The position numbers and the translations under genes are program-made. Below the pieces are notes generated by a model. The model made no database searches and was not told the origin of the DNA. It saw only the letters and a list, made by a program, of their open reading frames with translations. From positions 1-64,000 of the forward strand of contig DVHE01000058.1 of NCBI GenBank assembly GCA_018712245.1: DNA of 64,000 bases. The letters run 5' to 3'. This document shows, piece after piece, positions 14,307 through 63,401 of the stretch; positions within the stretch are counted from its first letter, which is position 1; each line of letters opens with the position of its first letter. The stretch is from Candidatus Avoscillospira avicola (GTDB lineage Bacteria; Bacillota; Clostridia; Oscillospirales; Oscillospiraceae).

Positions 14307-14701
14307 GTAGGGGCGCGCATTGCGCGTCCGCCTGGCTGCAATGCCAGAGCGCTGTCGCCGAACGAAGCGGCCCAAAGCCTCCCCTTGGTGCCCAAGGGGA
14401 GGTGGCGCAAAGTGCCGGAGGGGATCAGAACTTGCGTCTACAGCAGGGTGACAACCCCTCCGTCATGGCTTCGCCATGCCCCCGGGTTGCCGCTAAGCCT
14501 TCCCGGCCCGCGTTGCGGTCCGCCAAGGCAAGCGGCTGCCCAATCGCTGCGGTCGCTTGTTCTGCCACTGGCAGCGCTCCCTTGCGGGCCCTTTACACAA
14601 GGGGGCCTTTGAGGTGCAGTGGTATGAACGGGCTTTTCGCAACTGTCGCACCTTTCATGAAATGCCGCTTCGCGGCGCGGACGCGCAATGCGCGCCCCTA
14701 C
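14307..14701. repeat. 395-bp non-coding element with 24-bp terminal inverted repeats
   Basis: The ends 14307-14330 and 14678-14701 are exact inverted copies (start GTAGGGGCGCGCATTGCGCG). Inside are an 11-bp stem CCTCCCCTTGG/CCAAGGGGAGG (14378-14402), a small ATGGCTTCGCCAT hairpin, and no supported gene. The same 24-mer recurs at 17266-17289. It looks like a mobilised or recombined BIME/MITE-like repeat. It occupies most of the 700-bp gap between the GntR and racemase-like genes, and the remaining flanks show nothing. Confidence 0.8.
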
Positions 14702-19411: not shown

Positions 19412-20147
19412 ACTCTTCCTCCATTTCCCGGAGGAGCTTCCGCTCCTGCTTTGTCTCAAAACGAAGGGTTTTATATAGATCCGGCCGCCGCCGGTAGGTG
19501 CGCAGGAGGGATTGCTTCCGCCGCCAGCGGTCCACGGCGGCGTGGTTGCCCGAGAGGAGAATTTTGGGCACGGCCAGGCCGTGCCAGACCTCCGGGCGGG
19601 AGTACTGGGGATATTCCAGCGTGCCGGCCCAGTGGCTCTCGTCGGTGTAGCACATTTCGTCGCCCAGGACGCCGGGCACCAGCCGCGCCACGGCGTCGGC
19701 CACGGCCATGGCCGGAATCTCGCCGCCGGTGAGAACGAAGTCCCCCAGGGAGATCTCCTCGTCCACGCACTCGTCAATGAACCGCTGGTCGATGCCCTCG
19801 TAGTGGCCGCAGACCAGGATGAGGTTTTCCACGGTGTCCCGGAGGCGCACGGCGTCTTTTTGGGTGAAGGTCTTGCCGCAGGGGGAGAGATACACCGTGT
19901 GGACCGGGCCGCCGACCTCGTCGCAGACGGCCTCCCAGCAGCGGTAGAGGGGATCGGCCTGGAGGACGGCCCCGTGGCCGCCGCCGTAGGGATAGTCGTC
20001 CACCTGGTTCTGCTTGCTGGCGGTATAGTCCCGAATCTGCCAGGCTTCGATGCGGATGAGGTCCCGCTCCTGGGCCCGGCCCAGGATGCTCTCGTGCATC
20101 ATGTCGCCCACGGTGTCGGGGAAGAGCGTGAGAATGTCAATCCGCAT
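19377..20147 (-). CDS. trmD: tRNA (guanine37-N1)-methyltransferase
   Basis: 256 residues, full length. Trefoil-knot SPOUT enzyme making m1G37 in tRNAs that read CNN codons. Seen: MRIDILTLFP start, DDYPYGGGHG (PYGGG-type motif), VCGHYEGIDQR, SLGDFVLTGGE and the C-terminal domain ending QSFDPKKLD. It overlaps rimM by 11 bp, the conserved ribosome-maturation pairing; neither rpsP nor rplS, often linked, is in this window. Confidence 0.97.
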   Translation of the reverse strand: MRIDILTLFPDTVGDMMHESILGRAQERDLIRIEAWQIRDYTASKQNQVDDYPYGGGHGAVLQADPLYRCWEAVCDEVGGPVHTVYLSPCGKTFTQKDAVRLRDTVENLILVCGHYEGIDQRFIDECVDEEISLGDFVLTGGEIPAMAVADAVARLVPGVLGDEMCYTDESHWAGTLEYPQYSRPEVWHGLAVPKILLSGNHAAVDRWRRKQSLLRTYRRRPDLYKTLRFETKQERKLLREMEEEYGQSFDPKKLD

Positions 20148-49040: not shown

Positions 49041-50027
49041 TCAGACGTAGCCGTAGAGGCCCCGGACCGAGACCTCGCCGGAGCGGACGGTCTCCCGACG
49101 GCCATCCGCCAGCGTGACCACCAGGCCGCCCTCGTCGTCGATGTCCTCGGCGTGGGCCAGGCGGATCTGGTCGCCCTGGAGAATTTGCACATCCTGCCCC
49201 AGTGTGAGGCAGTGGGCCCGATAGCCCGCCAGCCACGGACCGGGATTGGTGAGCATTTCCGAAGCGGCCAGGTGGTACTGGCGGATCATCTCTGCCGCCA
49301 GGGCGCAGCGGTCCACCGGTCTGCCCAGAGCCTGCTCCAGGGAAATGGCCATATCCCGGATCTCCGGCGGGAAGTCCGCCGGCTGCTGGCCGCAGTTGAC
49401 GCCGGTGCCGGGGATGACGTAGCCGGTGAGGCCGGTCTCCGCCTCCAGGGAAAGCTCTGTGAGGATGCCGCAGAGCTTGCGCTTCTCCAGCACCAGATCG
49501 TTGGTCCACTTGATCCCCACATCCAGCCCGGTCTCCGCCGCCAGAGCCCGGCGGGTGGCCTCGGCGATCACTGTGGTGAGGTGCAGCAGCTTCTCCGGCG
49601 GCACGTCGTACCGCAGCACCACCGAGCAATAGATCCCCATGCCCTTGGGCGAGGAGAAGCTCCTGCCCCGGCGGCCTCGGCCCCCGCTCTGGTGGTCCGA
49701 CAGAATCACCGTGCCGTGGGGCGCCCCCTGGGCCGCCACGGCTTTGGCAAAATTGTTGGTGGAATCCACCGTTTCCAGCACCTGGACCAGCCCCTGCCAG
49801 GGGTGGCCCTCCAGCAGCTGTACCACCCCCGCCTGGGTCAGTCGGTTGGGCCGCCCCGTGAGGCAATAGCCCCGGTTGGTGGCCGATTCAATGGTGTAGC
49901 CCTCGGAGCGCAGCCGGTCAATGGCCTTCCATACGGCGGCCCGGCTCAGCCCCAGCTGCTCACTGATCTTCTGGCCGGAGACATACCCGCCCTGGGACAG
50001 CAGCTCCAAAACTGCATCTTTGGTCAT
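49041..50027 (-). CDS. birA: Bifunctional biotin-protein ligase and biotin repressor
   Basis: 328 residues. N-terminal winged helix (VSGQKISEQLGLSRAAVWKAIDRLRSEGY) marks a class II ligase that also represses. Central ligase domain with STNNFAK, GRGRRGRSFSSPKG (biotinyl-AMP loop), KWTNDL and GVNCGQ, then a C-terminal SH3-like domain. It makes biotinyl-AMP, loads carboxylases and, in excess, dimerises on operators such as the one at 50.24-50.28 kb before bioY. ATG at 50027 with GGGGGAAAA upstream. Confidence 0.95.
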   Translation of the reverse strand: MTKDAVLELLSQGGYVSGQKISEQLGLSRAAVWKAIDRLRSEGYTIESATNRGYCLTGRPNRLTQAGVVQLLEGHPWQGLVQVLETVDSTNNFAKAVAAQGAPHGTVILSDHQSGGRGRRGRSFSSPKGMGIYCSVVLRYDVPPEKLLHLTTVIAEATRRALAAETGLDVGIKWTNDLVLEKRKLCGILTELSLEAETGLTGYVIPGTGVNCGQQPADFPPEIRDMAISLEQALGRPVDRCALAAEMIRQYHLAASEMLTNPGPWLAGYRAHCLTLGQDVQILQGDQIRLAHAEDIDDEGGLVVTLADGRRETVRSGEVSVRGLYGYV

Positions 50028-50206
50028 GATATTTTCCCCCCTTGGGCAGCACCGCACAATGGTGTCTGCGGGCTTCGCCCAATCTTTTGACCCATCTGTG
50101 CAGTTATAAAAGAGGGAAATACATACAGTATTCCCGCTCTTTTATAACTTTCGTATGAGCCAAAATCTTTGGCCGAATCCACTTGCCAAATTGTGCGGCT
50201 CTGCCC

Positions 50207-50276
50207 TTGCTTTTTTCTTACTGTTCCGGTATACTCTGTATTGTAAACTGCACGCTTCCAATAAGGTTTACAATAC
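50207..50276 (+). promoter_or_regulatory. bioY promoter with BirA operator
   Basis: -35 TTGCTT (50207-50212), 17-bp spacer, -10 TATACT (50230-50235). The operator is a perfect 11-bp inverted repeat GTATTGTAAAC (50238-50248) and GTTTACAATAC (50266-50276) with a 17-bp centre, the BirA pattern TTGTAAAC-N-GTTTACAA. It covers the transcription start. Confidence 0.92.
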
Positions 50277-50294
50277 GACTGAGAGGTAACGACG

Positions 50295-50855
50295 ATGTCC
50301 AAGACAAAATCCATGATCTTAGCGGCGCTGTTCGCCGCGCTGACGGCGGTGGGTGCGCTGATCCGCATCCCCACGCCCATCTCTTCCTTCACCCTGCAGG
50401 TGTTGTTTGTGGCCATGTCCGGCGTGCTGCTGGGGTGCAAATGGGGCTTTCTCTCCCAGGCGGCCTACATCCTCCTGGGGCTGGTGGGCCTGCCGATCTT
50501 TGTGAGCGGCGGCGGCCCCGGCGCCCTGCTGCAGCCCACCTTCGGCTTCCTGCTGGGCATGGCGGCCATGAGCGCCCTGGTGGGCTATATTGTGGAGCGG
50601 CGCGGCGCCAAATTCTTCACCATCTGCTGGGCCTGTCTGCTGGGCCTGGTGCCGCTGTACGCCATCGGCCTTCCGTATATGCACCTCGTCCTCACGGTGT
50701 ATCTCCAGCGGAGCCAGACCGTCTGGGCGACGCTCTGGGGCGGCATGGTGATCTTCCTGCCTTGGGACATTCTGAAGGTGGCAGCCACAGCGGCGCTCTG
50801 CGCCAAGCTCTATCCGGCGCTGCACCGGAGCGTGCATCCGTCCCCCTCATTGTAA
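50295..50855 (+). CDS. bioY: Biotin transporter substrate-binding component BioY
   Basis: 186 residues, six membrane helices, S component of an ECF transporter. Seen: ALIRIPTPISSFTLQVLFVAMSG, LGCKWGFLSQAAYILLGLVGLPIF and the GGGPGALLQPTFGFLLG biotin-site region. Needs the EcfAT module, not in this window. Preceded by GAGAGGT and by a BirA operator. Divergent from birA, so biotin supply and sensing are paired. Confidence 0.95.
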   Translation: MSKTKSMILAALFAALTAVGALIRIPTPISSFTLQVLFVAMSGVLLGCKWGFLSQAAYILLGLVGLPIFVSGGGPGALLQPTFGFLLGMAAMSALVGYIVERRGAKFFTICWACLLGLVPLYAIGLPYMHLVLTVYLQRSQTVWATLWGGMVIFLPWDILKVAATAALCAKLYPALHRSVHPSPSL

Positions 50856-50952
50856 ACCCTGCATTTCGGATTGTCAACGAAACGCGGAAGGCATTGTCTT
50901 TTCCCCGGGGCTGTGGTACCATAGAAAAAAACACCCGGGAGGAACACGACAG

Positions 50953-51198
50953 ATGCGAACGCTTTACGGCCTCTTCCCCCTGAGCGACCAGGTGCGCCAG
51001 GGCGATATGCGCAGCCTTTTGATCTCGCTCATCATCTATGTGCTGGCCGCCGCCATCACGGCCATGCTCCGGGTGGTGCTGGGCTGGATTCCCCTGGTGG
51101 GGGCGCTGCTGGGCGTGATTTCGGTGTTGCTGAACCTCTACTGCGTGGCAGGAGGCGTGCTGGCGGTGCTGCGATTCTGGCAGGAGCGTCAGAAGTAA
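50953..51198 (+). CDS. Small membrane protein of unknown function
   Basis: 81 residues, two predicted helices (about 22-43 and 45-72), basic C-terminus RFWQERQK. GGGAGGA lies upstream of the ATG. It may belong to the host rather than to the phage-derived set that begins 170 bp later. No family recognised. Confidence 0.65.
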   Translation: MRTLYGLFPLSDQVRQGDMRSLLISLIIYVLAAAITAMLRVVLGWIPLVGALLGVISVLLNLYCVAGGVLAVLRFWQERQK

Positions 51199-51236
51199 AA
51201 AATTTTGCGTTTGCTAGTGAATGGCAGTACCTGCCG

Positions 51237-51285
51237 TGCTATAATAAATACTGGAACCACCGGCAGCGGGCCCGCTGCCGGTGGT
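51237..51285 (+). promoter_or_regulatory. Extended -10 promoter followed by a perfect 30-bp palindrome
   Basis: TGCTATAAT (extended -10, TATAAT at 51240-51245), no good -35. The expected start, about 51252, falls just before ACCACCGGCAGCGGG (51256-51270) and its exact complement (51271-51285), followed by GTTTTAC. The RNA would begin with a very stable hairpin, acting as stabiliser or early terminator. It may also end the upstream small gene. Confidence 0.6.
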
Positions 51286-51370
51286 GTTTTACAAGCGGCT
51301 GCCGAAAGGCGGCCGTTTTCGATTCTCGCTGCAGCAGAGCCAACACACGATCAGAAAGGAAGATGCCAAC

Positions 51371-52477
51371 ATGAGTGAAACCATGAACCTGGCCAGTAAG
51401 TACGCCAAGCGGGTGGACGAGCGCTTCAGCCGCGAATCCCAGGCGATGCTGGCACTCAACAACGACTACAACTTCACCGGCGTCCGGACCGTCAACGTCT
51501 ACTCCATCCCCACCGTGGCGATGAGCGACTACAGCCGCTCCGGCGACCACCGCTATGGCACGCCCAACGACCTGACCCGCAACATCCAGACCCTCACCGT
51601 GGGCCGGGACCGGGCCTTCACCTTCATCATCGACCGGGGCGACAGAGCCCAGTCCCAGATGGTGATGGACGCCGGCAAGGCCCTGGCCCGGCAGCTGAAG
51701 GAGGTGTGGGTACCGGAGTTCGACGCCTATGTCTTCCGCAAACTGGCCGCCGAGGCCACGGCCCGGGGCAACTTCGGCTCCGAGGAAGCCACCAAGGACA
51801 ACGCCTATGAGCTGTTCCTCCAGGCCATGGAGCAGCTGGGCAACCGCAATGTGCCGGACAAGGGGCGGGTGGCCTTCTGCTCCTACCGCTTCGCCAACCT
51901 GCTCAAGCAGGACCCCGCCTTCATGAAGTACGGCGACAGCTCCCAGGAGATGCTCATCAAGGGCGTCATCGGCGAGGTGGACGGCTGTAAGATCGTCAAG
52001 GTGCCCTCCGGGCGGCTGCCCAGCGGCTGCGCCTTCCTGCTGACCCACCCCATGGCCGCCACCGCGCCCCGGCAGCTGGAGGAGTACAAGACCCACAGCG
52101 ATCCCCCCGGCATCAGCGGCTTCCTCGTCGAGGGCCGCGTGGTCTACGACTGCTTCGTCCTGGCGGAGAAGGCCGACGCCATCTACTACCACGGCAACCA
52201 GCCGGTGCTGCGGCAGCTGAACGTCACCGCCGCCCAGACCGGGGCGGGCAAAGTCACCGTGCTGCTGAACCCCGGCACGCCTGAGGACGGCTGCTCCTGG
52301 AGCTACAAGGTGGGTGATGCCGCCGAGACCGTCACCTACGACGGTACCGTCTCCGGCTTCACCGCTCTGCCTGCCTCCGGTACCGAAATCGCCACCGCCG
52401 GCAAGAAGTTCCTCACCGTGGTGGAGCTGAACAGCGAAAGCAAGGCCCGGGCCGTGGGCGTCGTGAAGCTGGCGTAA
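51371..52477 (+). CDS. Phage major capsid protein
   Basis: 368 residues. The first 280 residues match a common Firmicutes prophage capsid type (start MSETMNLASKYAKRVDERF, then FTGVRTVNVYSIPT, DRAFTFIIDRGD, EAGKAL-like DAGKALARQLKEVWVPEFDAY), expected to have the HK97 fold. The last 85 residues (from about LNVTAAQTGAGKVTV) form a Ser/Thr/Gly-rich beta segment that could be an Ig-like surface decoration. No protease or scaffold gene is adjacent. ATG at 51371 after AAAGGAAG. First gene of the cluster; a hairpin follows it. Confidence 0.9.
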   Translation: MSETMNLASKYAKRVDERFSRESQAMLALNNDYNFTGVRTVNVYSIPTVAMSDYSRSGDHRYGTPNDLTRNIQTLTVGRDRAFTFIIDRGDRAQSQMVMDAGKALARQLKEVWVPEFDAYVFRKLAAEATARGNFGSEEATKDNAYELFLQAMEQLGNRNVPDKGRVAFCSYRFANLLKQDPAFMKYGDSSQEMLIKGVIGEVDGCKIVKVPSGRLPSGCAFLLTHPMAATAPRQLEEYKTHSDPPGISGFLVEGRVVYDCFVLAEKADAIYYHGNQPVLRQLNVTAAQTGAGKVTVLLNPGTPEDGCSWSYKVGDAAETVTYDGTVSGFTALPASGTEIATAGKKFLTVVELNSESKARAVGVVKLA

Positions 52478-52512
52478 TCCCGCGATCACCCTGCGGCAAC
52501 AAATCAAAACCG

Positions 52513-52536
52513 CGGCGGGGCCAACCGGCCCCGCCG
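52513..52536 (+). other. Hairpin after the capsid gene
   Basis: Perfect 10-bp stem CGGCGGGGCC and complement (52513-52522, 52527-52536), loop AACC, no T-run. Probably raises capsid message over downstream genes. Confidence 0.65.
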
Positions 52537-52554
52537 GGAAAGGAGGGAAGACCT

Positions 52555-53157
52555 TTGACCTACGGCGAAATGAAGGACTTTGTCCTGCAGCTCATCAACC
52601 AATACTCCGTGGCCGGCAGCCGCGTTCCCCTGACCTATAACGACCAGGCCGACCTGGTGGCCCGCATTCCGGCGCTGATGCGCGACGGCCTGATCTACGT
52701 CGTCACCACGGCCCGGCGGCTGCGGGCTGTGGCCGACCTCACCGACCCCCAGGAGCAGGGCGGACTGCTGATCTACGACCTGCCGGAGGACTGCTACCAG
52801 CTGGCCGGCGGCCTTTTGCGGCTGGAGGGCGGCCGGCTGCGCCGCTTCCAAAACTACCGGCTGCTGGGCGGGCGGCAGGTGGCCATCCCCCGGGAGGCAC
52901 AGGGGCAGTACCAGGTGGAATACTTCCGCTACCCACAGCTGCCCCAGGCCACGCCCATGGACGACGACCGGCTGGACTGCCCGCCGGAGGCCCAGCCGGT
53001 GGTGGCCTACTACGTGGCGGCCCATCTGGTCATGGAGGACAACGCCTTCCTCTATGCCGGGCTCTACAACGAGTTCGAGCGGCGCCTCGCCCGACTGGAG
53101 GAGGGGCCCACAGCCGAGCTGGGCCTGGTGGAGGACGCCTACGACTGCTGTGACTGA
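52555..53157 (+). CDS. Head-tail connector / tail accessory protein (P22 gp4-like)
   Basis: 200 residues, mostly helical at both ends with a central beta part. The start MTYGEMKDFVLQLINQYS, the mid LIYDLPEDCYQLAGG and the late VVAYYVAAHLVMEDNAFLYAGLYNEFERRLARL follow the pattern of gp4-type adaptors of podoviruses, which join portal to tail. TTG start at 52555 after AAAGGAGGG. Strangely, the portal it should bind is missing from the locus. Confidence 0.72.
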   Translation: MTYGEMKDFVLQLINQYSVAGSRVPLTYNDQADLVARIPALMRDGLIYVVTTARRLRAVADLTDPQEQGGLLIYDLPEDCYQLAGGLLRLEGGRLRRFQNYRLLGGRQVAIPREAQGQYQVEYFRYPQLPQATPMDDDRLDCPPEAQPVVAYYVAAHLVMEDNAFLYAGLYNEFERRLARLEEGPTAELGLVEDAYDCCD

Positions 53158-53189
53158 GCCCAGAAAATCGCAAAAAAGGAGGGAAACCA

Positions 53190-55292
53190 TTGGCCAGTTC
53201 CACCATGGCCGCCACCGCCGGCCTGCCCGATCCGCCGGAGGAGCGGTCCATCACCTTTGAAAACCTCTCCGGCGGCCTGAACCTCTGGGAGCTTCCCTAC
53301 CGGATGGATGCCGACCAGAGCCCCGACATGGAGAACCTCTGGTGGCGGGACGGCCTCCTCAGCTGCCGGGACGGCCAGGCATACGTCTCGGAGCCTCTGG
53401 GGCAGGGCATCTGCTGCGCCGAGCGGCTCTACTGGGGCCACGCCATTTTGCACATCGGCGACGGCCTCTACGCCGCCCGGCCCGGCGCCGAAATGGTGCC
53501 GGAAAAGCTCTGCGGCGGCCTCCCCACCACCCGCGGCACCTTCATCCGCTACCGGGACGCCCTGCTCTACAAGACCCGCGGGGCCTTCAAAACCATCCGC
53601 TGGGATGGCGAGGGCGGCTTCACCGCCGAGGACGTGACACCCTACGTGCCGGTGACGTCCATCAACTGCGCCCCGGCCGACGGCGCCGGCGACCTCTACC
53701 AGCCGGAAAACCGCCTCAGTCCCCGGAAGACCCTCTGGTATACCGCCACCCGGGAACGCCGGGGCGTCTCCTTCGCCGGCAACGGCACCGCCGAGGAGTT
53801 CCACTTTGAAACCGAGGACGGCGAGCTGGTCTATCAGGTGGTGCAGGTCTACGTGGGGAGTACCCTGGTTCCGGAAACCGACTACGAGGTCTCCACGACG
53901 GACGGCTGCACCGTCACCCTCAAGGACGCGCCGGGCTTCAACGAGGCCGTCAGCGTGGTCTACGAGGTGGCGGTGCGGGTCTACCACCTGCCGGTGCAGG
54001 AGATCGACGCCGTCGTGTCCTGCACCGTGGACGGCGAGGACGTCACCAACTTTACCGCCGACCTCGAGGCCGGCACCATTACCTTTGCCGTGGCCCCGCC
54101 GATGCAGGACCCGCCGGTCAACAACACCGTGGTCATCACCTACGAAAAGGCCAACTCCGACGCCCAGAAGAGCATCATGGACTGCTGCTACGGCTGCGCC
54201 TACGGCGGTACCGGCGGCGCCGTGCTGGTTTTGGCCGGGTCCGAGGCCCAGCCCAACGCCTACTTCTGGAACGGCAGCCATGTGGCCATGGACCCGGGGT
54301 ACTTCCCCATGGAGTACTACAACCTGGCTGGCGACAGCCTGGAGCCCGTCACCGGCTTCGGCCTCCAGGCGGGCTACCTGATGGTGTTCAAGACCCACGC
54401 CGTGGGCCGGTGCCTGCTGGGGACCGAGACCATCGGGGACCGGGCCTACCTGACCATGGACTACACCCCGGTCAACGCCGCCATCGGCTGCGACCTGCCC
54501 TTCACCATCCGGCTGGTGGAAAACAACCTGGTCTGGTGCAGCACCTACGGCGGCGTTTACCGCCTGGAGGACACCACCGCCGCCCTGGAAAACCAGGTGC
54601 GGTGCATCTCCGGCAACATCAATGGCTGTGCCGGGCGTCCCGGACTTCTCCAGGCCGTCCAGGAGGCCGAAACCGTCTCCGCCCTGGACGACGCCGAGCG
54701 CTACTGGATCGCCGCCGGCGGAAAGGTCTATCTCTGGGACTACCGCCTTTCCTCCGCCGGAAAGCCCAGCTGGTTCTACTTCACCCACATCGACGCCGTG
54801 GACTTCTTTCGGGGCGACACCCGGGACGACGGCGGCGAGGCCTTCACCGGCCCGCTGCGCATCTACCATCTGGACCCCCAGGGCCGCATCAGCCGCTTCG
54901 TGCGGAACTTCCGCGACTACGGCGGCGCCATCCCCAAGGTATTTGAGTTTCCCACCCAGGACTTCGGCGGCCATCTGCGGATGAAGCACATCCGGCGGGT
55001 GATCCTCTCCACCCGATCCGACACCGATACGGTGATCCGCATTCAGTACGAGACCGACTACGGCCTGCGGGAAGATCTCACCCCGGTGGAATGCTTCAGC
55101 TGGCACCTGGCGCCCCGCGATCTGGCCCGGCGAATGCTGGCCATCCGCCGCTTCGCCCACGTGGCCGTGCGCAAGCCGGGCTGCCGCCACGTCCGCCACT
55201 TCACCATGCGGCTTTCCAACAACGAGCCGGGGTGCGACATGTCCCTGGTGTCAGCCCAGATCGTCTTCACCAGCCAGCAGAGAAACCGATAG
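53190..55292 (+). CDS. Tail hub protein, P22 gp10-like beta-propeller candidate
   Basis: 700 residues, beta-rich with many Trp/Tyr/Gly, beginning with the FENLSGGLNLWELPYRM block that opens gp10/tail-tube-B-type proteins, followed by repeated blade-like segments (for example MENLWWRDGLLSCRDG, VWCSTYGGVYRLED, YWIAAGGKVYLWDY). In podoviruses this protein closes the tail under the gp4 ring. TTG start at 53190 after AAGGAGGG. Calling it a propeller is an inference from sequence texture and position. Confidence 0.7.
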   Translation: MASSTMAATAGLPDPPEERSITFENLSGGLNLWELPYRMDADQSPDMENLWWRDGLLSCRDGQAYVSEPLGQGICCAERLYWGHAILHIGDGLYAARPGAEMVPEKLCGGLPTTRGTFIRYRDALLYKTRGAFKTIRWDGEGGFTAEDVTPYVPVTSINCAPADGAGDLYQPENRLSPRKTLWYTATRERRGVSFAGNGTAEEFHFETEDGELVYQVVQVYVGSTLVPETDYEVSTTDGCTVTLKDAPGFNEAVSVVYEVAVRVYHLPVQEIDAVVSCTVDGEDVTNFTADLEAGTITFAVAPPMQDPPVNNTVVITYEKANSDAQKSIMDCCYGCAYGGTGGAVLVLAGSEAQPNAYFWNGSHVAMDPGYFPMEYYNLAGDSLEPVTGFGLQAGYLMVFKTHAVGRCLLGTETIGDRAYLTMDYTPVNAAIGCDLPFTIRLVENNLVWCSTYGGVYRLEDTTAALENQVRCISGNINGCAGRPGLLQAVQEAETVSALDDAERYWIAAGGKVYLWDYRLSSAGKPSWFYFTHIDAVDFFRGDTRDDGGEAFTGPLRIYHLDPQGRISRFVRNFRDYGGAIPKVFEFPTQDFGGHLRMKHIRRVILSTRSDTDTVIRIQYETDYGLREDLTPVECFSWHLAPRDLARRMLAIRRFAHVAVRKPGCRHVRHFTMRLSNNEPGCDMSLVSAQIVFTSQQRNR

Positions 55293-55308
55293 AGAAAGGA
55301 GCGAGACG

Positions 55309-55503
55309 ATGCTTTTGACCATCACCGGCGCGGCGCTGCTGGCCCTGGGCTTTGCCCTGGGCTGGTTCCTGAAGCCCCGCGCCACCGTACCCGCCGCGCC
55401 GCCTCCGGAGGAGCAGGAGCGGGCGGCATTCCAGGAAGAGCGCGCCGCCTTCGCCCAGCTGATGGGCTACAACGCCCGGCGGGCCTACGGCGCGGAAGAG
55501 TAA
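55309..55503 (+). CDS. Small single-helix phage protein
   Basis: 64 residues: one membrane helix (about 3-22), proline linker, then an acidic helical part. AAAGGAG precedes the ATG, and the gene fills the gap between hub and fibre genes. Function unknown; a membrane-acting or spanin-like role is only a guess. Confidence 0.65.
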   Translation: MLLTITGAALLALGFALGWFLKPRATVPAAPPPEEQERAAFQEERAAFAQLMGYNARRAYGAEE

Positions 55504-55515
55504 GGAGGCGCTGCC

Positions 55516-56940
55516 ATGGCTTTTCAATCCATGACCTTTACGAAATCCTGGGAAGATCCCGCGGATTTTCCCACCTACGAGCCGGACGAGGCCCAGGTAC
55601 GGGCGGATTTGCAGTACCTGCACAATGAGATGCGCGACGCCTTCAACGGCCTGGTGGCCAGCCTCAACGCCACTTCCGCCGCGGCCAATCTGCCCATCTC
55701 CGTGCCGGGCCTCTCCGCCGGGACCATCCAGGCGGCCATCGAGGAAACGCTGGCGGAGGTCCAAAAGGCCGCCGCCGGACAGATTGTGGACGGCTCCATC
55801 ACCCGGGAAAAGCTGGCCGCTTCGCTGCTGGCGCGCATTTACGGCGGACGCCTGATCGTCTCCTGGAACACGCCCGGCGCGGCCCAAACCCCCGACAGCG
55901 ACTACCCGGTGGGCCAGCTGTGGCTCCGTCCGGCGCTGGACGTTGCGAACGAGGCCCAACCCAGCTGGAGCCTCTCCGGCTGCACAGCCCAGGAGACAGA
56001 GGGCGGCTGGCGCTTCAACGCAGACCGGACCATGTCCGCCGCCGGCGTCAGCCAGCGGCTGGAGGGCCTGGGCCCCGGCGGCAGCGCGGTGCTGCTCCAT
56101 CTGGCGCTGACCGGGCAGGATTCTGCCCTCACCAGTCTGACGCTCTACTGCAACAGCGCGCCGGTCCAGCTGCCGGAAAGCAGCTGGCTGGAGACCACGC
56201 TGGACAGCAGCGGCAGTCTGGAATTGCAGCTCCAGGCCCAGTGGCCTTCCACCGAGGCGGCGGGCTACTTCCAGGTGGGCGATTTGACCATCGTGCCGGT
56301 GGGCGCGCTGGAGGCATCGCTGCCAGACTGCGCGCCGCCGGAGGACTGGGAAACGCTGCTCCAGAGCCACGTGCCCTTTACCGCCTTCCGCCTGCCCAGG
56401 GCGGTATTTTTACAGGTGGCGCCCGGGCAGTGGGAGACCGTGGACGAGGAGGTGCTGCCGGTCAGCCGGGGCGGCACGGGCCGCAAGGCCGTGGCGGCGG
56501 GGCAGCTCCTCTACGGCGCGGAAAACGGCATGGCGGCGCTGGACCCTCCGGAGGCGTCCGGCGCTGTGCTGGGCTTTTCCGAGGGGCGGCCCGTCTGGCA
56601 GAGCCTGCCCCAGCTGGGCGCCCTCCAAGCCGTTCAGGGCAGCTACACCGGCAATCAGGCAGAGCGCACCATTGACCTGGGCGCCACGCCGCGCCTGTTG
56701 GTGGTGCAGGGCACCTTTGAATCGCCCGCCCTGCTGCTCCAGGGCCAGAGCGTCGCCCAGACCCTCCGCTGCACCCAGGCCTCCGACGGCGCCTATCCCA
56801 CCTACGGCGCCGGACTGACCCTCCAGGGGAGCCGGCTGACCATCTGGCTCAGCGCCTCCCAGGAGGCCGTGGCCTGCGGCGCGGCGGCCCGGGCCTGGAA
56901 CCTGCCGGGCGTCCCGTACGCCTGGCTGGCCCTTTGCTGA
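55516..56940 (+). CDS. Phage tail fibre-like protein
   Basis: 474 residues. N-terminal helical region (about 20-110) likely forms a trimeric stalk, then beta-rich domains. The motif VSRGGTGRKAVAAGQLLYG near residue 315 is the GGTG-type repeat common in tail fibres. The C-terminal 100 residues (ERTIDLGATPRLLVV onward) suit a receptor-binding tip. Preceded by AAGGAGG. It ends just before the next gene. Confidence 0.75.
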   Translation: MAFQSMTFTKSWEDPADFPTYEPDEAQVRADLQYLHNEMRDAFNGLVASLNATSAAANLPISVPGLSAGTIQAAIEETLAEVQKAAAGQIVDGSITREKLAASLLARIYGGRLIVSWNTPGAAQTPDSDYPVGQLWLRPALDVANEAQPSWSLSGCTAQETEGGWRFNADRTMSAAGVSQRLEGLGPGGSAVLLHLALTGQDSALTSLTLYCNSAPVQLPESSWLETTLDSSGSLELQLQAQWPSTEAAGYFQVGDLTIVPVGALEASLPDCAPPEDWETLLQSHVPFTAFRLPRAVFLQVAPGQWETVDEEVLPVSRGGTGRKAVAAGQLLYGAENGMAALDPPEASGAVLGFSEGRPVWQSLPQLGALQAVQGSYTGNQAERTIDLGATPRLLVVQGTFESPALLLQGQSVAQTLRCTQASDGAYPTYGAGLTLQGSRLTIWLSASQEAVACGAAARAWNLPGVPYAWLALC

Positions 56941-56948
56941 GGCCGGCC

Positions 56949-57302
56949 ATGGACGGGATTCTCGCCGCATTTTTCAGCGGCAGCGCGGCCTCGGCGTTGA
57001 TTTCCGGCATCTTCGCCCTGGTGCAGGCCAGACTGCGCCGGGGCAAGCAGCACAGCGACACGGAGCAGGCCCTGGTGGACGGGATGAAGTTCATTCTGCT
57101 GGACGTCATTGCCCAGCGGGCCATGGGCTACATCCAGACCGGGGAGGTGGAGCTCCGGGACAAGCAGCTGCTGCGCAGGATGCATCAGGTATACCACACC
57201 GGCCTGGGCGGCAACGGCGATCTGGACGCGCTGATGGAGCAAGTGGACAAGCTCCCGGTACGACTGGAGCCCTGGGTCGGCGGAGAAAGGGGAGAGACAT
57301 GA
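56949..57302 (+). CDS. Phage protein with one N-terminal helix
   Basis: 117 residues: hydrophobic segment (about 3-27), basic patch QARLRRGKQ, then a helical domain (KFILLDVIAQRAMGYIQTGEVELRDKQLLRRMHQVYH). Position beside fibre genes and the single helix would suit a holin-like or tail-associated protein, but no family is firmly recognised. The ribosome site is weak (GAGG overlapping the preceding stop), so it is likely translated by coupling. Overlaps the next gene by 4 bp. Confidence 0.65.
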   Translation: MDGILAAFFSGSAASALISGIFALVQARLRRGKQHSDTEQALVDGMKFILLDVIAQRAMGYIQTGEVELRDKQLLRRMHQVYHTGLGGNGDLDALMEQVDKLPVRLEPWVGGERGET

Positions 57303-58426
57303 AACTCGAATTATTCGTCCGGGACCGGCGCGTGCGGAAAAAGGGCATCGAACCTCTGGTGGCGGACACCGCCCAGGTGGACACCTTCACCATCGATTTC
57401 GACGCGGAGTGGACCGGGATGGTCAAGGTGGTGGTGTTCCAGAACGGCGACAGCACCGCCCAGCTGCTCTACACCGGCGAGACGCAGATCCCGGCCAACG
57501 TCCTTGCGCCGGGGGAGTTGTACGTCGCCTGCCACGGTTATAAGAAACTGGAGGACTCCATGGCGGTGCTGCGCACCGTGGCCATGGTGCGGCCCATCCC
57601 GGTGCTTCTCTCGGAGCCGGGGGTGACGACTGACCCCACGGTCTACACGCCCACCATGCTTGAGCAGATGCTGACAGCCGTCCAGGCGGCGCAGGAGGCA
57701 GCCTCCACGGTCCGCCAGCTCTGTGCCCAACTCCAGGCAGACCTGGAGGCGGGGCGGTTCAACGGCCCTCAGGGCATCCCGGGGAAGAACGCCACGCTGG
57801 AGATCGACGGCGCCGAGGAGGGGGGACAGCCGGCGGTCTACAATCTCGGCACCGCCCAAAACGCCCGGCTGCGGTTCGTGCTGCCCCGGGGCGTGGGCAT
57901 CCGCGCCCTGGAGGACAACTGGGACGGCACCTGGCGGCTGACTTACTCCGACGGTACGGAGCAGATCCTCCGGGCGCCCGGCGTTACGGACCTGCCGTCG
58001 GAGGAAATGCTGGCAGAGGCGGTGGCGGCGTATCTCACCGAACACCCGCCGGCCCAGGGGGAGCCCGGCGAAGCGGGCCGCAGCGTCACGGCCATCACCT
58101 TCCTGCCGGAGACCAACCAGTGGCGCTATACCTTCTCCGACGGCACCCAGAGCGACGTTCCCGGTCCGACGCTGCCCACCGCTCTCTCCCAGCTGAGCGA
58201 GGATTCCAGCCACCGCACGGTGACAGACACGGAAAAGAGCGGCTGGAACACCGCCAAGACCCAGGCTGCCGCGGCCATGCCCAAGGCGGGTGGCGCCTTC
58301 ACCGGAACCGTCTCTGCCGCCGCTGCTGCTCAGACCCCCGGCACTGCGCTCCTGCGCAACAGCCGCCTTTCCGCCAGCGAGGTCACGCCCGGCAGCAACG
58401 GCGAAATCTGCTGGCAGTATGAGTAG
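57299..58426 (+). CDS. Phage baseplate/receptor-binding upper protein (BppU-like)
   Basis: 375 residues. N-terminal domain (about 1-100, LELFVRDRRVRKKG...VDTFTIDFDAEWTG) resembles the baseplate-anchoring module of Firmicutes phage fibres, followed by a helical stalk (AVQAAQEAASTVRQLCAQL), a collagen-like NGPQGIPGKN, two related beta repeats (WRLTYSDGTEQ and WRYTFSDGTQS) and a C-terminal MPKAGGAFTGTV fibre motif. Begins inside the preceding gene (ATGA). Siphovirus-like baseplate modules next to P22-like hub proteins make the cluster mosaic. Confidence 0.75.
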   Translation: MKLELFVRDRRVRKKGIEPLVADTAQVDTFTIDFDAEWTGMVKVVVFQNGDSTAQLLYTGETQIPANVLAPGELYVACHGYKKLEDSMAVLRTVAMVRPIPVLLSEPGVTTDPTVYTPTMLEQMLTAVQAAQEAASTVRQLCAQLQADLEAGRFNGPQGIPGKNATLEIDGAEEGGQPAVYNLGTAQNARLRFVLPRGVGIRALEDNWDGTWRLTYSDGTEQILRAPGVTDLPSEEMLAEAVAAYLTEHPPAQGEPGEAGRSVTAITFLPETNQWRYTFSDGTQSDVPGPTLPTALSQLSEDSSHRTVTDTEKSGWNTAKTQAAAAMPKAGGAFTGTVSAAAAAQTPGTALLRNSRLSASEVTPGSNGEICWQYE

Positions 58427-58434
58427 GTGAAGCC

Positions 58435-59301
58435 ATGGGACATCGCGTGACCATCGGCGGCACCGGCCACGACATCGCCGGCGGAAAGACGCTGGTATCC
58501 GGCACTGCCCGCACGCTCACCGGCGGGCGGACCCGGGTGGCCGGCACTATTTACGACATCCCTTTAGACCGGTTCGACCCGGTCCTGAACAACAATACCT
58601 GGGAGCAGATTTCCCTGGCCGCCCAAAAGGGTGTGGCGGAGAATGTCTGGCGCGTGGGCGACACCAAGGAGATTACCCTCTCCGGCAGCGTGGGCGGCGT
58701 CAACCTCAGCGGAACCTATCTCTGCTATATCCTGGGCTTCAACCACAACGCCGCCCTGGAGGGCGACAACCGCATCCACTTCCAGCTGGCCAGGTCCACG
58801 GCGGGCAAGGAGCTGTGCTTTTACAGGTATCAGCTGAGTTCCGCCTTCGGCACTGCCGGCGGCTGGGAAACGTGCAGTCTGCGCAATACCCTATTGGGAA
58901 CCGACCCGGCAAATTGCGCCGGGACGATTCTCGGCACGTTCCCGGCGGAGCTGCTGGCGGTGCTGCGCCCGGCGCAGAAATACTCCGACAACGGTTCCGG
59001 CGATCTTGGAAGTGTCAGCGCCACCACGGATTACCTCTGGATTCCCGCGGAAAAAGAGGTGTTCGGCACCGTCACGGAAGGCACTGCCGGACAGGGATCG
59101 CAGCAGGCGCAATACGCCTACTACGCCGCCGGCGGCAGCAAAATCCGCTACGCCCAGAACGATACGCGCAACACCGAGCGGGAATGGTGGCTTCGTTCCC
59201 GGGCCGACGCCTTTACGTTCTGCTACGTGGACGATACCGGAAACGTCATGAACGAGGTTCCCAGCGAGGAGTACGGTGTGGCCCCCATCTTTTGCGTCTG
59301 A
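58435..59301 (+). CDS. DUF6273 (C-type-lectin-like) phage adhesin candidate
   Basis: 288 residues. N-terminal beta repeats (GHRVTIGGTGHDIAGG, GTARTLTGGRTRVAGT) fit an attachment shaft. Then DUF6273: NNNTWEQISLAAQKGVAENVWRVGD, the DYLWIPAEKEVFG block and the closing REWWLRSRADAFTFCYVDDTG...GVAPIFCV. This domain is related to C-type-lectin/FGE folds used by phages for ligand binding. The final WWLRS-to-FCV stretch is where diversity-generating retroelements act in some relatives, but no reverse transcriptase or template repeat is seen here. Confidence 0.8.
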   Translation: MGHRVTIGGTGHDIAGGKTLVSGTARTLTGGRTRVAGTIYDIPLDRFDPVLNNNTWEQISLAAQKGVAENVWRVGDTKEITLSGSVGGVNLSGTYLCYILGFNHNAALEGDNRIHFQLARSTAGKELCFYRYQLSSAFGTAGGWETCSLRNTLLGTDPANCAGTILGTFPAELLAVLRPAQKYSDNGSGDLGSVSATTDYLWIPAEKEVFGTVTEGTAGQGSQQAQYAYYAAGGSKIRYAQNDTRNTEREWWLRSRADAFTFCYVDDTGNVMNEVPSEEYGVAPIFCV

Positions 59302-59336
59302 CTCAGGCGCCGCATCATCAGAAAGGACGTGATTGT

Positions 59337-59693
59337 TTGACCCAGGTCATCCTTGGAGCCCAGCAATACGACGCCGCCGTCAGCGGCAAGACCCGAGACC
59401 CCGACTGGGACTATCGGGCCAGCAAATCCATCACCCTCACCATGGACCACAACACCGCCGCGTCGCTCTTCCAAAACGGCGCGGCCTGGTCCATCCTCTT
59501 TCAGGCTCCGGCCTATGAGGACCCTGAGACCGGCGAGATGGTGACGCCGGAGGCCGTCACTTACGACAACAGCGACTACTGCGTGGCCGGCGACATCACC
59601 GACCACCGCGACGGCACCGTCACCGTGAAGATGGGCCGCCTGACGGCCCTGGAGGAAACCCTGGAGCTGATTTACGGAGGTGATACGCTATGA
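59337..59693 (+). CDS. Phage protein of unknown function
   Basis: 118 residues, beta-rich (LTMDHNTAASLFQNGAAWSILFQ), acidic. TTG start at 59337 with AAAGGA about 10 bases upstream. It overlaps the following micro-gene by 4 bp. Placement after the fibre genes suggests a tail or assembly accessory. Confidence 0.65.
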   Translation: MTQVILGAQQYDAAVSGKTRDPDWDYRASKSITLTMDHNTAASLFQNGAAWSILFQAPAYEDPETGEMVTPEAVTYDNSDYCVAGDITDHRDGTVTVKMGRLTALEETLELIYGGDTL

Positions 59694-59821
59694 GCTTGCG
59701 CGCCAGCGCCATGCTGCTGCTCTACCGCATGGGCCGCATCCAGGCCGACGCCGTCCGTCAGGCCGTGGAGGACGGCATCCTGACCGAGGCGGAGCGGGAC
59801 ATCATTTTGAATTGGAAATAA
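59690..59821 (+). CDS. XkdX-like micro-protein
   Basis: 43 residues: a short helix pair with the pattern LLYRMGRIQADAVRQAVEDG followed by ILTEAERDIIL. Small proteins of this size and type (XkdX family) sit after fibre genes in many Firmicutes prophages. ATG overlaps the preceding stop (ATGA), with GGAGG 8 bases upstream; stop TAA at 59819-59821. Confidence 0.7.
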   Translation: MSLRASAMLLLYRMGRIQADAVRQAVEDGILTEAERDIILNWK

Positions 59822-59833
59822 GGAGGATCATCT

Positions 59834-60103
59834 ATGCAGCCGAGAACCATTTGGGAAAAACTCCGCTCCACGAAGCTCTGGTGCGCCCTGGCGGGCCTCA
59901 TTCTGGGCGCCGCCCTGGCCTTTGGGGCTGACGGCCAGGACTTGCAGCAAATCCTCGGCGCGGTGACGGCCATCGTCTCCGCCGTGACGTATATCGTCAC
60001 CGAGGGCCGCGTGGACGCCGCCTCGGCCCAGGGGCTGGGCCAGGGGCTCGCCGAGCTGCTGGCGCTCTTCGCCGGCGCGGAGGACGAAGACGATGACGCT
60101 TGA
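59834..60103 (+). CDS. Phage holin
   Basis: 89 residues: two predicted membrane helices (about 16-32 and 40-57), charged N-terminus (TIWEKLRSTK) and an acidic tail (AEDEDDDA). It sits directly before an amidase gene that it overlaps by 11 bp, the usual holin-endolysin pair. AAGGAGG precedes the ATG. Confidence 0.82.
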   Translation: MQPRTIWEKLRSTKLWCALAGLILGAALAFGADGQDLQQILGAVTAIVSAVTYIVTEGRVDAASAQGLGQGLAELLALFAGAEDEDDDA

Positions 60104-60809
60104 GGCCATCCCCTGCCGCCGGGAGAACTACGGCGGGCCCCGCACGGGGCCCGTCTCCTACCTGGTGGTCCACTATACCGCGGGTGACGGCGACACGGCC
60201 CGGGCCAACGGGCTCTACTTCTCCCGGAACACCGTGGCGGCCTCAGCCCACTACTTCGTGGACGACGGCGGCGCGGTGGCCTCGGTGCCCGAGACCCACG
60301 TGGCCTGGCACTGCGGCGCGGCCAGCTACCGCCATCCCCACTGCCGCAACGGCAACTCCCTGGGCGTGGAGCTGTGCGACACCAGCGCCGACGGCAGCTA
60401 CGGCTTCACCGAGGCCACGCTGGAGAACGCCCTGACGCTGCTGGCCGACCTGATGGCCCGCCACAGCGTACCCATCGACCATGTGGTGCGCCACTACGAC
60501 GTCACCGGCAAATGCTGCCCGGCCCCCTTCGTCACTGACGAGGCGGCCTGGCGGCAATTTTTGGAGAGATTGGAGGCAAGATCGATGACAGACGAAACCT
60601 TTGCCGCCCTTTGCCAACGCCGCCAGGCAGAGGTGGGGGCGCAGCCGCCCGGCGACTGGTCCGCTGAGGCCCGGGCCTGGGCCGAGGGCCGGGGGCTTCT
60701 GGTGGGGGACAGCGCCGGAATGCGCTACAAGAGCCCCGTCACCCGGGAGGAGCTGGTGCAGGTACTTTACCGCTTGACGAAGGAGGACAGCCATGGCGAC
60801 ACTGAGTAA
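60093..60809 (+). CDS. N-acetylmuramoyl-L-alanine amidase (phage endolysin)
   Basis: 238 residues, Amidase_2/PGRP fold at about 15-160: zinc ligands in VVHYTAG (His), VRHYDVTGKCCP (His and the Cys of the GKxCP-like end), plus AHYFVDDGG and HVAWHCG. Cleaves the MurNAc-L-Ala bond. A C-terminal piece (about 190-235, AEARAWAEGRGLLVG, VTREELVQVLYRL) looks like one SLH module, a possible wall-binding part. Overlaps the last gene by 17 bp. Ribosome site weak, translation coupled to the holin. Confidence 0.9.
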   Translation: MTLEAIPCRRENYGGPRTGPVSYLVVHYTAGDGDTARANGLYFSRNTVAASAHYFVDDGGAVASVPETHVAWHCGAASYRHPHCRNGNSLGVELCDTSADGSYGFTEATLENALTLLADLMARHSVPIDHVVRHYDVTGKCCPAPFVTDEAAWRQFLERLEARSMTDETFAALCQRRQAEVGAQPPGDWSAEARAWAEGRGLLVGDSAGMRYKSPVTREELVQVLYRLTKEDSHGDTE

Positions 60810-62322
60810 AGCCGACCAAACCTATTTGACCGAATCCCAGCAGCAGGAGATTCTGGCCCTAAAGGACGCCTGGGCCAAGGCCAACGCTGCCGGCGACGAG
60901 GCCGGCAAAAAGGCCGCCAACCAGCAGGCCGAGGCCATCCGGGCCACTGCCGGCTACCAGGGCGGCGCCGATGGCACCGGCTACACCAAGATCAACGCGG
61001 GGGCGGGCGGCCAGTCGGCCCAGAATGTAAAAAAGTGGGTGGAGGAATATCAGTACACCAACTACGACCCCCAGAACGGCTGGGTCAACGGCTTCTCCAC
61101 CGAGATGAACCTCCGAAGCATGGCCAACTACATCCGCCAGCAGATGGAGGCCAATTCCCAGGCCTGGGCCGGGGCCGATCAGGCCACCCAGCAGTATCTC
61201 CATGACCAGAACGTCCAGCTGGCGGAGATCCTCCGGGACGCCACCGGCGGCGCCACCAGCACCTACAACGAGGAAAAGGGCCGCTGGGAGACCGACAACG
61301 CCAACCTGGGCTACGGCTACAACGTGGGCCAGTACAACGACCTGGACTGGTACAAGAACTTCTACCGCATGACCGACGAGCAGATCGCGGCCTACCGGGC
61401 CGACACCAACCGCTACCGCAACTACGTCGACCAGGGGCTGATCCGCAACTGGGTGGATGAATCCAGCGGCTATACCGGCGTCTACAGCCAGTTCGTCAAC
61501 GGTCCCTACGCCCAGCTGCTGACCGGCTCCAAGTCCAGCAACGTGAACCCCACCACGTATAAGGACGTGATCGGCGACGGCTTCAACGAGAAGGAGTACG
61601 TGCCGCCCCTGGACGCCAGCGGCAACGTGGTGCCCCAGCCGCCCAAGCTGAAAAACAACAACTCCATGACCGACTACACCCGGCAGTTTACCTCCTATGT
61701 GGATGAAAACGGCGTTATCCAGCCGGGACTGCTGCTCCAAACCACGCCTGCCGGTGCCCGGCGGCGGAGCGCCTCCCCCGGGCCGCTCTCGGTCTCAGGC
61801 GGCGGCAGCGCCTCCCTGGGGGGATGGAAGGAAGCCGCGGAGCAGCAGGCCATCAATATGCGGGACTACGCCGTGGACCAGGCGGTGGCCCAGCTTTTGC
61901 AGGCGGAATCGGAGGCCCTGGCCCAGTACCAGACCCAGCGGGACCAGATCGAGGGAGAATCCCGCAACGCCCTGGACAACGCCGCCCTCTACGCCGAGAC
62001 CCGGGGAGATCGGGGCGGCATCGGCCAGGCCCAGTACAACACCATCCAGGCCACGGCGGCCAAGAACCGCCAGGCCGTCAACCTGGCCCAGACCCAGATG
62101 ACGGCCCAGACCGCCCAGCAGGCGGCCCAGCTCCGGGCCCAGGGTGAATTTGAAAAGGCCGACGACCTCCTGGAGATCGCCCAGACCTACATCCTCAAGC
62201 TGCTGGAGATGGAGCAGTGGGCCGCGGAGTACCAGCTGGACACGGCCAAGTTTCAGGCCAGCCTCTACCAGTGGCAGCAGGAGTTCCAGCTGAGCGCCGC
62301 CAAGGCCATGGCCAAGGGCTAA
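60793..62322 (+). CDS. Long coiled-coil phage protein, candidate ejection/internal virion protein
   Basis: 509 residues, rich in Gln, Ala, Asn and Tyr. N-terminal helix (ESQQQEILALKDAWAKA), Tyr/Asn-rich middle (WVEEYQYTNYDPQNGW, TSTYNEEKGRWETDNANLGYGY) and a long C-terminal helical region from about 350 with heptad-like Ala/Gln spacing (AAEQQAINMRDYAVDQAVAQ, ENRQ-like repeats). Podovirus ejection proteins have such composition, and gp4/gp10-type genes are present, which supports but does not prove the role. No enzymatic motif seen. AGGAGGACAGCC precedes the ATG. Confidence 0.65.
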   Translation: MATLSKADQTYLTESQQQEILALKDAWAKANAAGDEAGKKAANQQAEAIRATAGYQGGADGTGYTKINAGAGGQSAQNVKKWVEEYQYTNYDPQNGWVNGFSTEMNLRSMANYIRQQMEANSQAWAGADQATQQYLHDQNVQLAEILRDATGGATSTYNEEKGRWETDNANLGYGYNVGQYNDLDWYKNFYRMTDEQIAAYRADTNRYRNYVDQGLIRNWVDESSGYTGVYSQFVNGPYAQLLTGSKSSNVNPTTYKDVIGDGFNEKEYVPPLDASGNVVPQPPKLKNNNSMTDYTRQFTSYVDENGVIQPGLLLQTTPAGARRRSASPGPLSVSGGGSASLGGWKEAAEQQAINMRDYAVDQAVAQLLQAESEALAQYQTQRDQIEGESRNALDNAALYAETRGDRGGIGQAQYNTIQATAAKNRQAVNLAQTQMTAQTAQQAAQLRAQGEFEKADDLLEIAQTYILKLLEMEQWAAEYQLDTAKFQASLYQWQQEFQLSAAKAMAKG

Positions 62323-62340
62323 CACGGCAGACAAACTGTG

Positions 62341-62362
62341 CGCCCCGGCAAAAGCCGGGGCG
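62341..62362 (+). terminator. Terminator of the phage-derived cluster
   Basis: 9-bp stem CGCCCCGGC and complement (62341-62349, 62354-62362), loop AAAA, followed by TATATTTGG. Confidence 0.8.
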
Positions 62363-62386
62363 TATATTTGGATTTCCTGGAAACAG

Positions 62387-63291: not shown

Positions 63292-63325
63292 AAAAATCCC
63301 ACCTGCTTTGGCAGGTGGGATTTTT
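63292..63325 (-). terminator. Terminator of tRNA-Arg
   Basis: Perfect 15-bp inverted repeat AAAAATCCCACCTGC and complement with loop of 4. It begins at the last base of the encoded CCA and ends in five T on the minus strand. Confidence 0.9.
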
Positions 63326-63401
63326 GGTACGCCCGACACGATTCGAACGTGCGACCTACAGAGTCGGAGTCTGTCACTCTATCCAGCTGAGCTACGAGCG
63401 C
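63325..63401 (-). tRNA. tRNA-Arg (anticodon CCG)
   Basis: 77 nt including encoded CCA. Acceptor GCGCTCG/CGGGCGT, D stem GCTC/GAGT, anticodon stem ACAGA/TCTGT with loop CTCCGAC (anticodon CCG, reads CGG), T stem GCACG/CGTGT with TTCGAAT loop. All arms pair, with a few G-U pairs including the first acceptor pair. Confidence 0.97.

Follow-up and report, generated by a model that had tools for sequence, protein, structure and literature searches.

A capsid-tail-lysis operon of Candidatus Avoscillospira avicola, probably part of a split gene transfer agent

The capsid, tail and lysis genes of Candidatus Avoscillospira avicola probably belong to a gene transfer agent (GTA). The agent would derive from a short-tailed phage that was domesticated and divided between two operons under common control. 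This reading fits the capsid, nozzle, fibre and lysis genes, the separate terminase-portal operon found in congeners, the lack of replication and lysogeny genes and the long maintenance of the element. The analysed window, a stretch of 64,000 nucleotides, lies on contig C82 of the A. avicola MAG (G000; 2.41 Mb, 87 contigs, 84.29% complete). It would hold the capsid-tail-lysis operon of the agent, with the terS, terL and portal genes, usually with a scaffold gene, at a second chromosomal site in the genus. An earlier note on the window had proposed either a split prophage with its packaging genes elsewhere or a domesticated particle unable to package DNA. The evidence favors a merger of these alternatives, an element that is both domesticated and split. 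Domestication agrees with the presence of the block in seven of eight congeners, with purifying selection and with the absence of lysogeny genes. The split is seen in the congeners. An inability to package DNA is unlikely for the genus because six of the eight congeners carry a packaging operon, preceded in three of them by the promoter of the capsid operon.

Gene content of the capsid-tail-lysis block

The block (positions 51371 to 62322) consists of 13 intact genes on the plus strand, most of which overlap or are separated by a few bases. None is broken, as the earlier note had stated, and the capsid, hub, fibres, holin, amidase, promoter and terminator that it had named were all located. 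As in GTAs, intact phage-like capsid and tail genes are thereby kept in the host genome. The first gene (51371 to 52477) encodes the major capsid protein (PHROG 422, "major head protein," E value of 2.5e-57), and the Pfam match in its C terminus (PF18316) is an S-layer-like accessory domain. The tail nozzle or hub protein (53190 to 55292; 700 residues) gave a confident AlphaFold model (pLDDT of 87). Its best Foldseek matches in the PDB were the podoviral tail nozzles of cyanophage A4, T7 (gp12) and P22 (gp10), with E values down to 5e-21, in line with the previous description of a gp10-like hub. The gene between capsid and hub (52555 to 53157) is present as described, but its identity as a gp4-like head-tail connector comes from a PHROG of unknown function (13046) and from its position. 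It is treated here as a candidate, as are the holins, which were assigned by position and weak matches.

Downstream of the hub, a small membrane protein (55309 to 55503) has, according to tblastn and blastp, a homologue between terL and portal in relatives with a contiguous element. The tail fibre (55516 to 56940) has a conserved N terminus and a variable C terminus, and outside the genus its homology is restricted to about 100 N-terminal residues. It is followed by a small protein that is possibly a holin (56949 to 57302; PHROG 4105, unknown function), a BppU-like or fibre protein with a collagen-like stretch (57299 to 58426; weak match to PHROG 8780, minor tail) and a DUF6273 protein that is a candidate for receptor binding (58435 to 59301; PF19789, 5.5e-8; PHROG 37900, 4.5e-45). 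Two further small proteins had no Pfam match: one is conserved (59337 to 59693), with homologues in congeners G001, G004 and G007, and the other, of 43 amino acids (59690 to 59821), looks XkdX-like by eye. A small hydrophobic protein (59834 to 60103), weakly conserved in the contiguous relatives, is a holin candidate encoded directly 5' of the N-acetylmuramoyl-L-alanine amidase, the endolysin (60093 to 60809; Amidase_2, PF01510, 2.8e-26). The last gene (60793 to 62322) encodes a helical protein whose C-terminal 150 or so residues are conserved across genera. Its AlphaFold model was too poor to interpret (pLDDT of 56), and its role as an ejection or internal virion protein is conjectured from where it lies and how well it is conserved. 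The tRNA-Gln that ARAGORN placed inside this gene (62046 to 62129, minus strand) is probably spurious. At 63325 to 63401 on the minus strand there is a plausible tRNA-Arg (CCG).

The upstream host flank (49041 to 51198) comprises birA on the minus strand and bioY and a small membrane gene on the plus strand. No terminase, portal or integrase adjoins the block, as noted before. Integrase, repressor and replication genes are all absent from the block, no integrase or repressor lies beside it, and no direct repeats resembling attachment sites were found flanking it. The block thus lacks the integrase and repressor of a temperate prophage. Nor does it look like a tailocin, a tail without a capsid, as the earlier note had also judged: the capsid is kept, together with a short-tail nozzle.

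Packaging operon and shared promoter in the genus

The genomes of the genus were searched for TerL with a query from G011, a genome of another genus. TerL was found in six of eight congeners, in a terS-terL-portal operon that usually includes the scaffold gene and lies apart from the capsid operon. If the locus were universal in the eight species, 6.4 matches would be expected given MAG completeness; seven were observed for the capsid and six for TerL. In G007, the packaging operon is located between host genes on a contig other than that of the capsid, and in G001, G005 and G006 it is on separate short contigs. In G003, it is divergent from the capsid at a distance of 4 kb, with genes for isocitrate dehydrogenase and another metabolic enzyme in between. 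The scaffold homologue of G003 (L027, about 19879 to 19998) belongs to the capsid operon, where it comes after the helical protein, and does not follow the portal. TerL has Terminase_6N and Terminase_6C domains, the portal is of the P22 type, and no recognizable DNA-binding domain was detected in TerS. Replication, integration and lysogeny genes are absent from this second operon as well, so that both operons have the gene content expected of a GTA in this respect.

The A. avicola MAG yielded no packaging operon; neither the congener portal nor the portal profile had any match in it. A terminase on contig C35 was rejected as the packaging gene of the block. It belongs to a separate, unrelated prophage (L036, about 46 to 58 kb) that has a terminase, a portal and a capsid of its own. 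The site that holds the packaging operon in a congener was also inspected: the flanking transglutaminase operon is present on contig C57, followed by S-layer genes and no packaging genes. In four congeners, the packaging operon sits on contigs of 3.0, 4.4, 4.7 and 6.2 kb. In G007, terL and portal are separated by a repeat (L045, 7322 to 7889) of which the A. avicola genome has dozens of copies. This dispersed repeat (about 110 to 160 bp, 83 to 94% identical) occurs there in more than 30 places, including positions 14454 to 14611, 73746 to 73877 and 91933 to 92063 of contig C82. Because the operon is mostly on short contigs or beside repeats in congeners, its loss during assembly or binning is a plausible reason for its absence from this MAG. 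Since the MAG itself lacks the operon, we infer the split in A. avicola from its congeners.

The capsid operon is preceded by a promoter (51210 to 51245, plus strand) in which a 10-bp direct repeat (TTTGCTAGT/GAATGGCAGT) takes the place of the -35 box. The sequence 5' of the capsid reads TTTGCTAGTGAATGGCAGTACCTGCCGTGCTATAAT, in which the direct repeat precedes a perfect -10 box, TATAAT, at 51240 to 51245. The promoter is alignable 5' of the capsid in G004, G006 and G007, and the pattern occurs once in the A. avicola genome. In congeners, this promoter type (TAGTGAATGGCAGTA-type) precedes both operons. In the whole genome of G007, the pattern was found exactly twice, 5' of the capsid and 5' of terS, and the reversed control gave no match. 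The version of the promoter in G003 likewise occurs exactly twice in that genome, at the same two places. The two operon promoters are nearly identical in G001 and share weaker similarity in G005. G001 has two further copies at contig ends (G001:C53:6-34 and G001:C163:6-34; L117 and L119), with the downstream genes cut off; these genes could also belong to the regulon. GTA genes may be spread over several loci that are expressed together, and the dispersal and shared promoter in the congeners predict such joint expression.

Both operons have terminator-like hairpins between the promoter and the first gene (z-scores of -2.1 to -5.7), which suggests that both are controlled by antitermination. 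In the window, the first leader hairpin (51256 to 51285, plus strand) has a 13-bp stem, the leader has a z-score of -5.65, and similar hairpins are present in G006 and G007. The second (51293 to 51318, plus strand), terminator-like and followed by TTTT, lies 5' of the first gene at a position conserved in G004, G006 and G007. The claim that the block has its own promoter and terminator held for the promoter, with its clear -10 box, but less well for the terminator, as the terminal hairpin (62337 to 62366, plus strand) has a weak T tail.

Conservation in the genus and relatives outside it

The capsid gene was found in seven of the eight Candidatus Avoscillospira genomes examined, with 80 to 87% identity, and the matches include the named records Candidatus Avoscillospira stercoripullorum and A. 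stercorigallinarum. The complete gene order of the block is kept in G004 and G007. The order birA-bioY-membrane gene is kept 5' of the capsid in G006, and in G007 the membrane gene lies 5' of the capsid at the contig edge. The dN/dS values of the capsid, connector, hub and helical protein relative to the congeners were mostly 0.2 to 0.35 (range, 0.16 to 0.46), compared with 0.24 for birA and 0.14 for bioY. Fibre and receptor-type genes had values of about 0.3 to 0.8; the BppU-like protein gave 0.43 to 0.56 in three of four comparisons, and the DUF6273 gene was the fastest-evolving of the block (0.6 to 0.8). The identity of the hub to that of the window (79% in G007, 71% in G004, 68% in G001, 62% in G003 and 60% in G005) followed the same order as that of a host gene (96, 92, 90, 83 and 83%, respectively). 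The block is not a decaying remnant, since seven of eight congeners carry it, the dN/dS of its core genes is low and its divergence tracks that of the host gene. The comparison of synteny and dN/dS proposed in the earlier note showed an intact block with core genes under purifying selection. The chromosomal site of each operon varies between species, and so the operons are not inherited strictly in place. Long-term vertical maintenance under purifying selection, a property of GTAs, is nevertheless seen, although the site moves.

Genomes of other genera, namely G011, G014 and several named MAGs, have the homologous element in one contiguous piece of about 13 kb between conserved host flanks. 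Its order is terS, terL, small membrane gene, portal, scaffold, capsid, connector, hub and fibre, with the helical protein at the end. These contiguous elements of other Oscillospiraceae had no integrase or other lysogeny genes. The full-length capsid is patchy across the family, and the capsid match in G044 was discarded because it belongs to an ordinary siphophage-like prophage. The portal profile matched in 133 of 394 Oscillospirales genomes, usually with one copy each, and the sampled portal loci of other families include compact clusters resembling FpGTA I. In a quick portal tree (midpoint root, several long branches), the FpGTA-I-like portals of other families were separated by a long branch (SH-aLRT of 100) from a clade of Oscillospiraceae and viral portals that contains Avoscillospira. 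Viral contigs with the same hub and portal, some of 37 to 85 kb, interleave with chromosomal elements in this clade, and the hub/portal family probably includes true phages. On a related viral contig (L181, 7944 to 8651; an IMG/VR contig of 85 kb), the capsid gene seems to be interrupted by a separate open reading frame resembling a homing endonuclease.

Known systems and alternative explanations

PBSX of Bacillus subtilis is likewise a domesticated Gram-positive particle; it packages host DNA, whereas packaging by the Avoscillospira element is predicted. Unlike this element, PBSX is long-tailed and encoded at a single contiguous locus. Podophages of the P22/T7 type share the P22-like portal and the nozzle fold of T7 gp12 and P22 gp10. 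The Avoscillospira block differs from them in lacking replication and lysogeny genes, in its arrangement in two operons and in its conservation with the host lineage.

The closest described system is FpGTA of Faecalibacterium prausnitzii, which has two unlinked operons, podovirus-type parts and a TerS without an obvious DNA-binding domain, and whose 40-nm particles contain host DNA fragments of about 9 kb (PMC12946183). The Avoscillospira element resembles it in all three features of its genes, and also in its holin and endolysin, the lack of replication genes and a gut Oscillospirales host. FpGTA I comprises terS, terL, portal, scaffold and capsid, and FpGTA II comprises baseplate, fibre and lysis genes (PMC12946183). 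In Avoscillospira, by contrast, the capsid is located with the nozzle, fibres and lysis genes, and the packaging genes stand alone. Judged from the published gene content of FpGTA, the FpGTA-I-like clusters and the separate portal clade, the two systems were likely domesticated independently. GTA-like packaging has been seen in Oscillospiraceae (Onthomonas) and in Gemmiger, with an operon identified only in Faecalibacterium (PMC12946183). A literature search on GTAs in the genus Avoscillospira found nothing further. CcGTA of Caulobacter crescentus combines an activator-driven promoter with terminators that must be bypassed and is coordinated with accessory genes elsewhere (PMC11150451). The likeness to CcGTA, from a different phylum, lies in the layout and the placement of hairpins that would accord with an activator plus antitermination.

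As a GTA, the element would work as follows. A putative activator would bind the 10-bp repeats of the promoter common to both operons, which would be turned on together when transcription passes the terminators in their leaders. TerL would then load fragments of host DNA non-specifically into the capsid by way of the portal, and addition of the nozzle and fibres would finish the tail. The holin and amidase would lyse the producer cell, and the particles would deliver host DNA to related cells. A PBSX-like defective particle, used as a weapon whose capsids with host DNA kill related cells and deliver nothing, would account for the rapid evolution of the receptor-binding genes (dN/dS of 0.5 to 0.8) and for the retained lysis genes. 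Such killing is known from particles with long tails, which counts against this reading, and the complete podoviral nozzle and the conserved candidate ejection protein suggest a tail for DNA delivery. We consider a weapon unlikely, even with PBSX as a Gram-positive precedent (PMC12946183).

The viral contigs of 37 to 85 kb that share the hub and portal would be consistent with the remnant of an ordinary temperate or lytic phage, cut in two by rearrangement. This origin is improbable given the intact genes under purifying selection in seven of eight congeners, the promoter common to both loci and the absence of lysogeny genes and attachment repeats. If this species had truly lost the packaging operon and kept a domesticated capsid-tail particle that stays empty, this would explain why the MAG has no packaging gene; as the MAG is only 84% complete, and short contigs in four congeners and dispersed repeats in G007 point to an operon that is difficult to assemble, we regard true loss as very improbable. 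Least credible is an artefact of assembly or binning that joined viral sequence to a host contig. The genome is a MAG, but the same genes occur in the same setting in independent MAGs from other samples, and G006 and G007 refute this explanation.

The two-operon element is a concrete GTA candidate in Oscillospiraceae, and its promoter signature links both operons in the congeners tested. The chances are about even that it represents a second lineage of gut GTAs, which arose from podophages of Oscillospiraceae by a domestication separate from that of FpGTA and was convergently split, with a regulon that would be governed by the repeat promoter and leader antitermination. The separation of packaging and particle genes would prevent the element from transferring itself whole, and the comparison suggests that this separation arose more than once. 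Together, the two halves of the element probably form particles that move fragments of host DNA from one cell to another.
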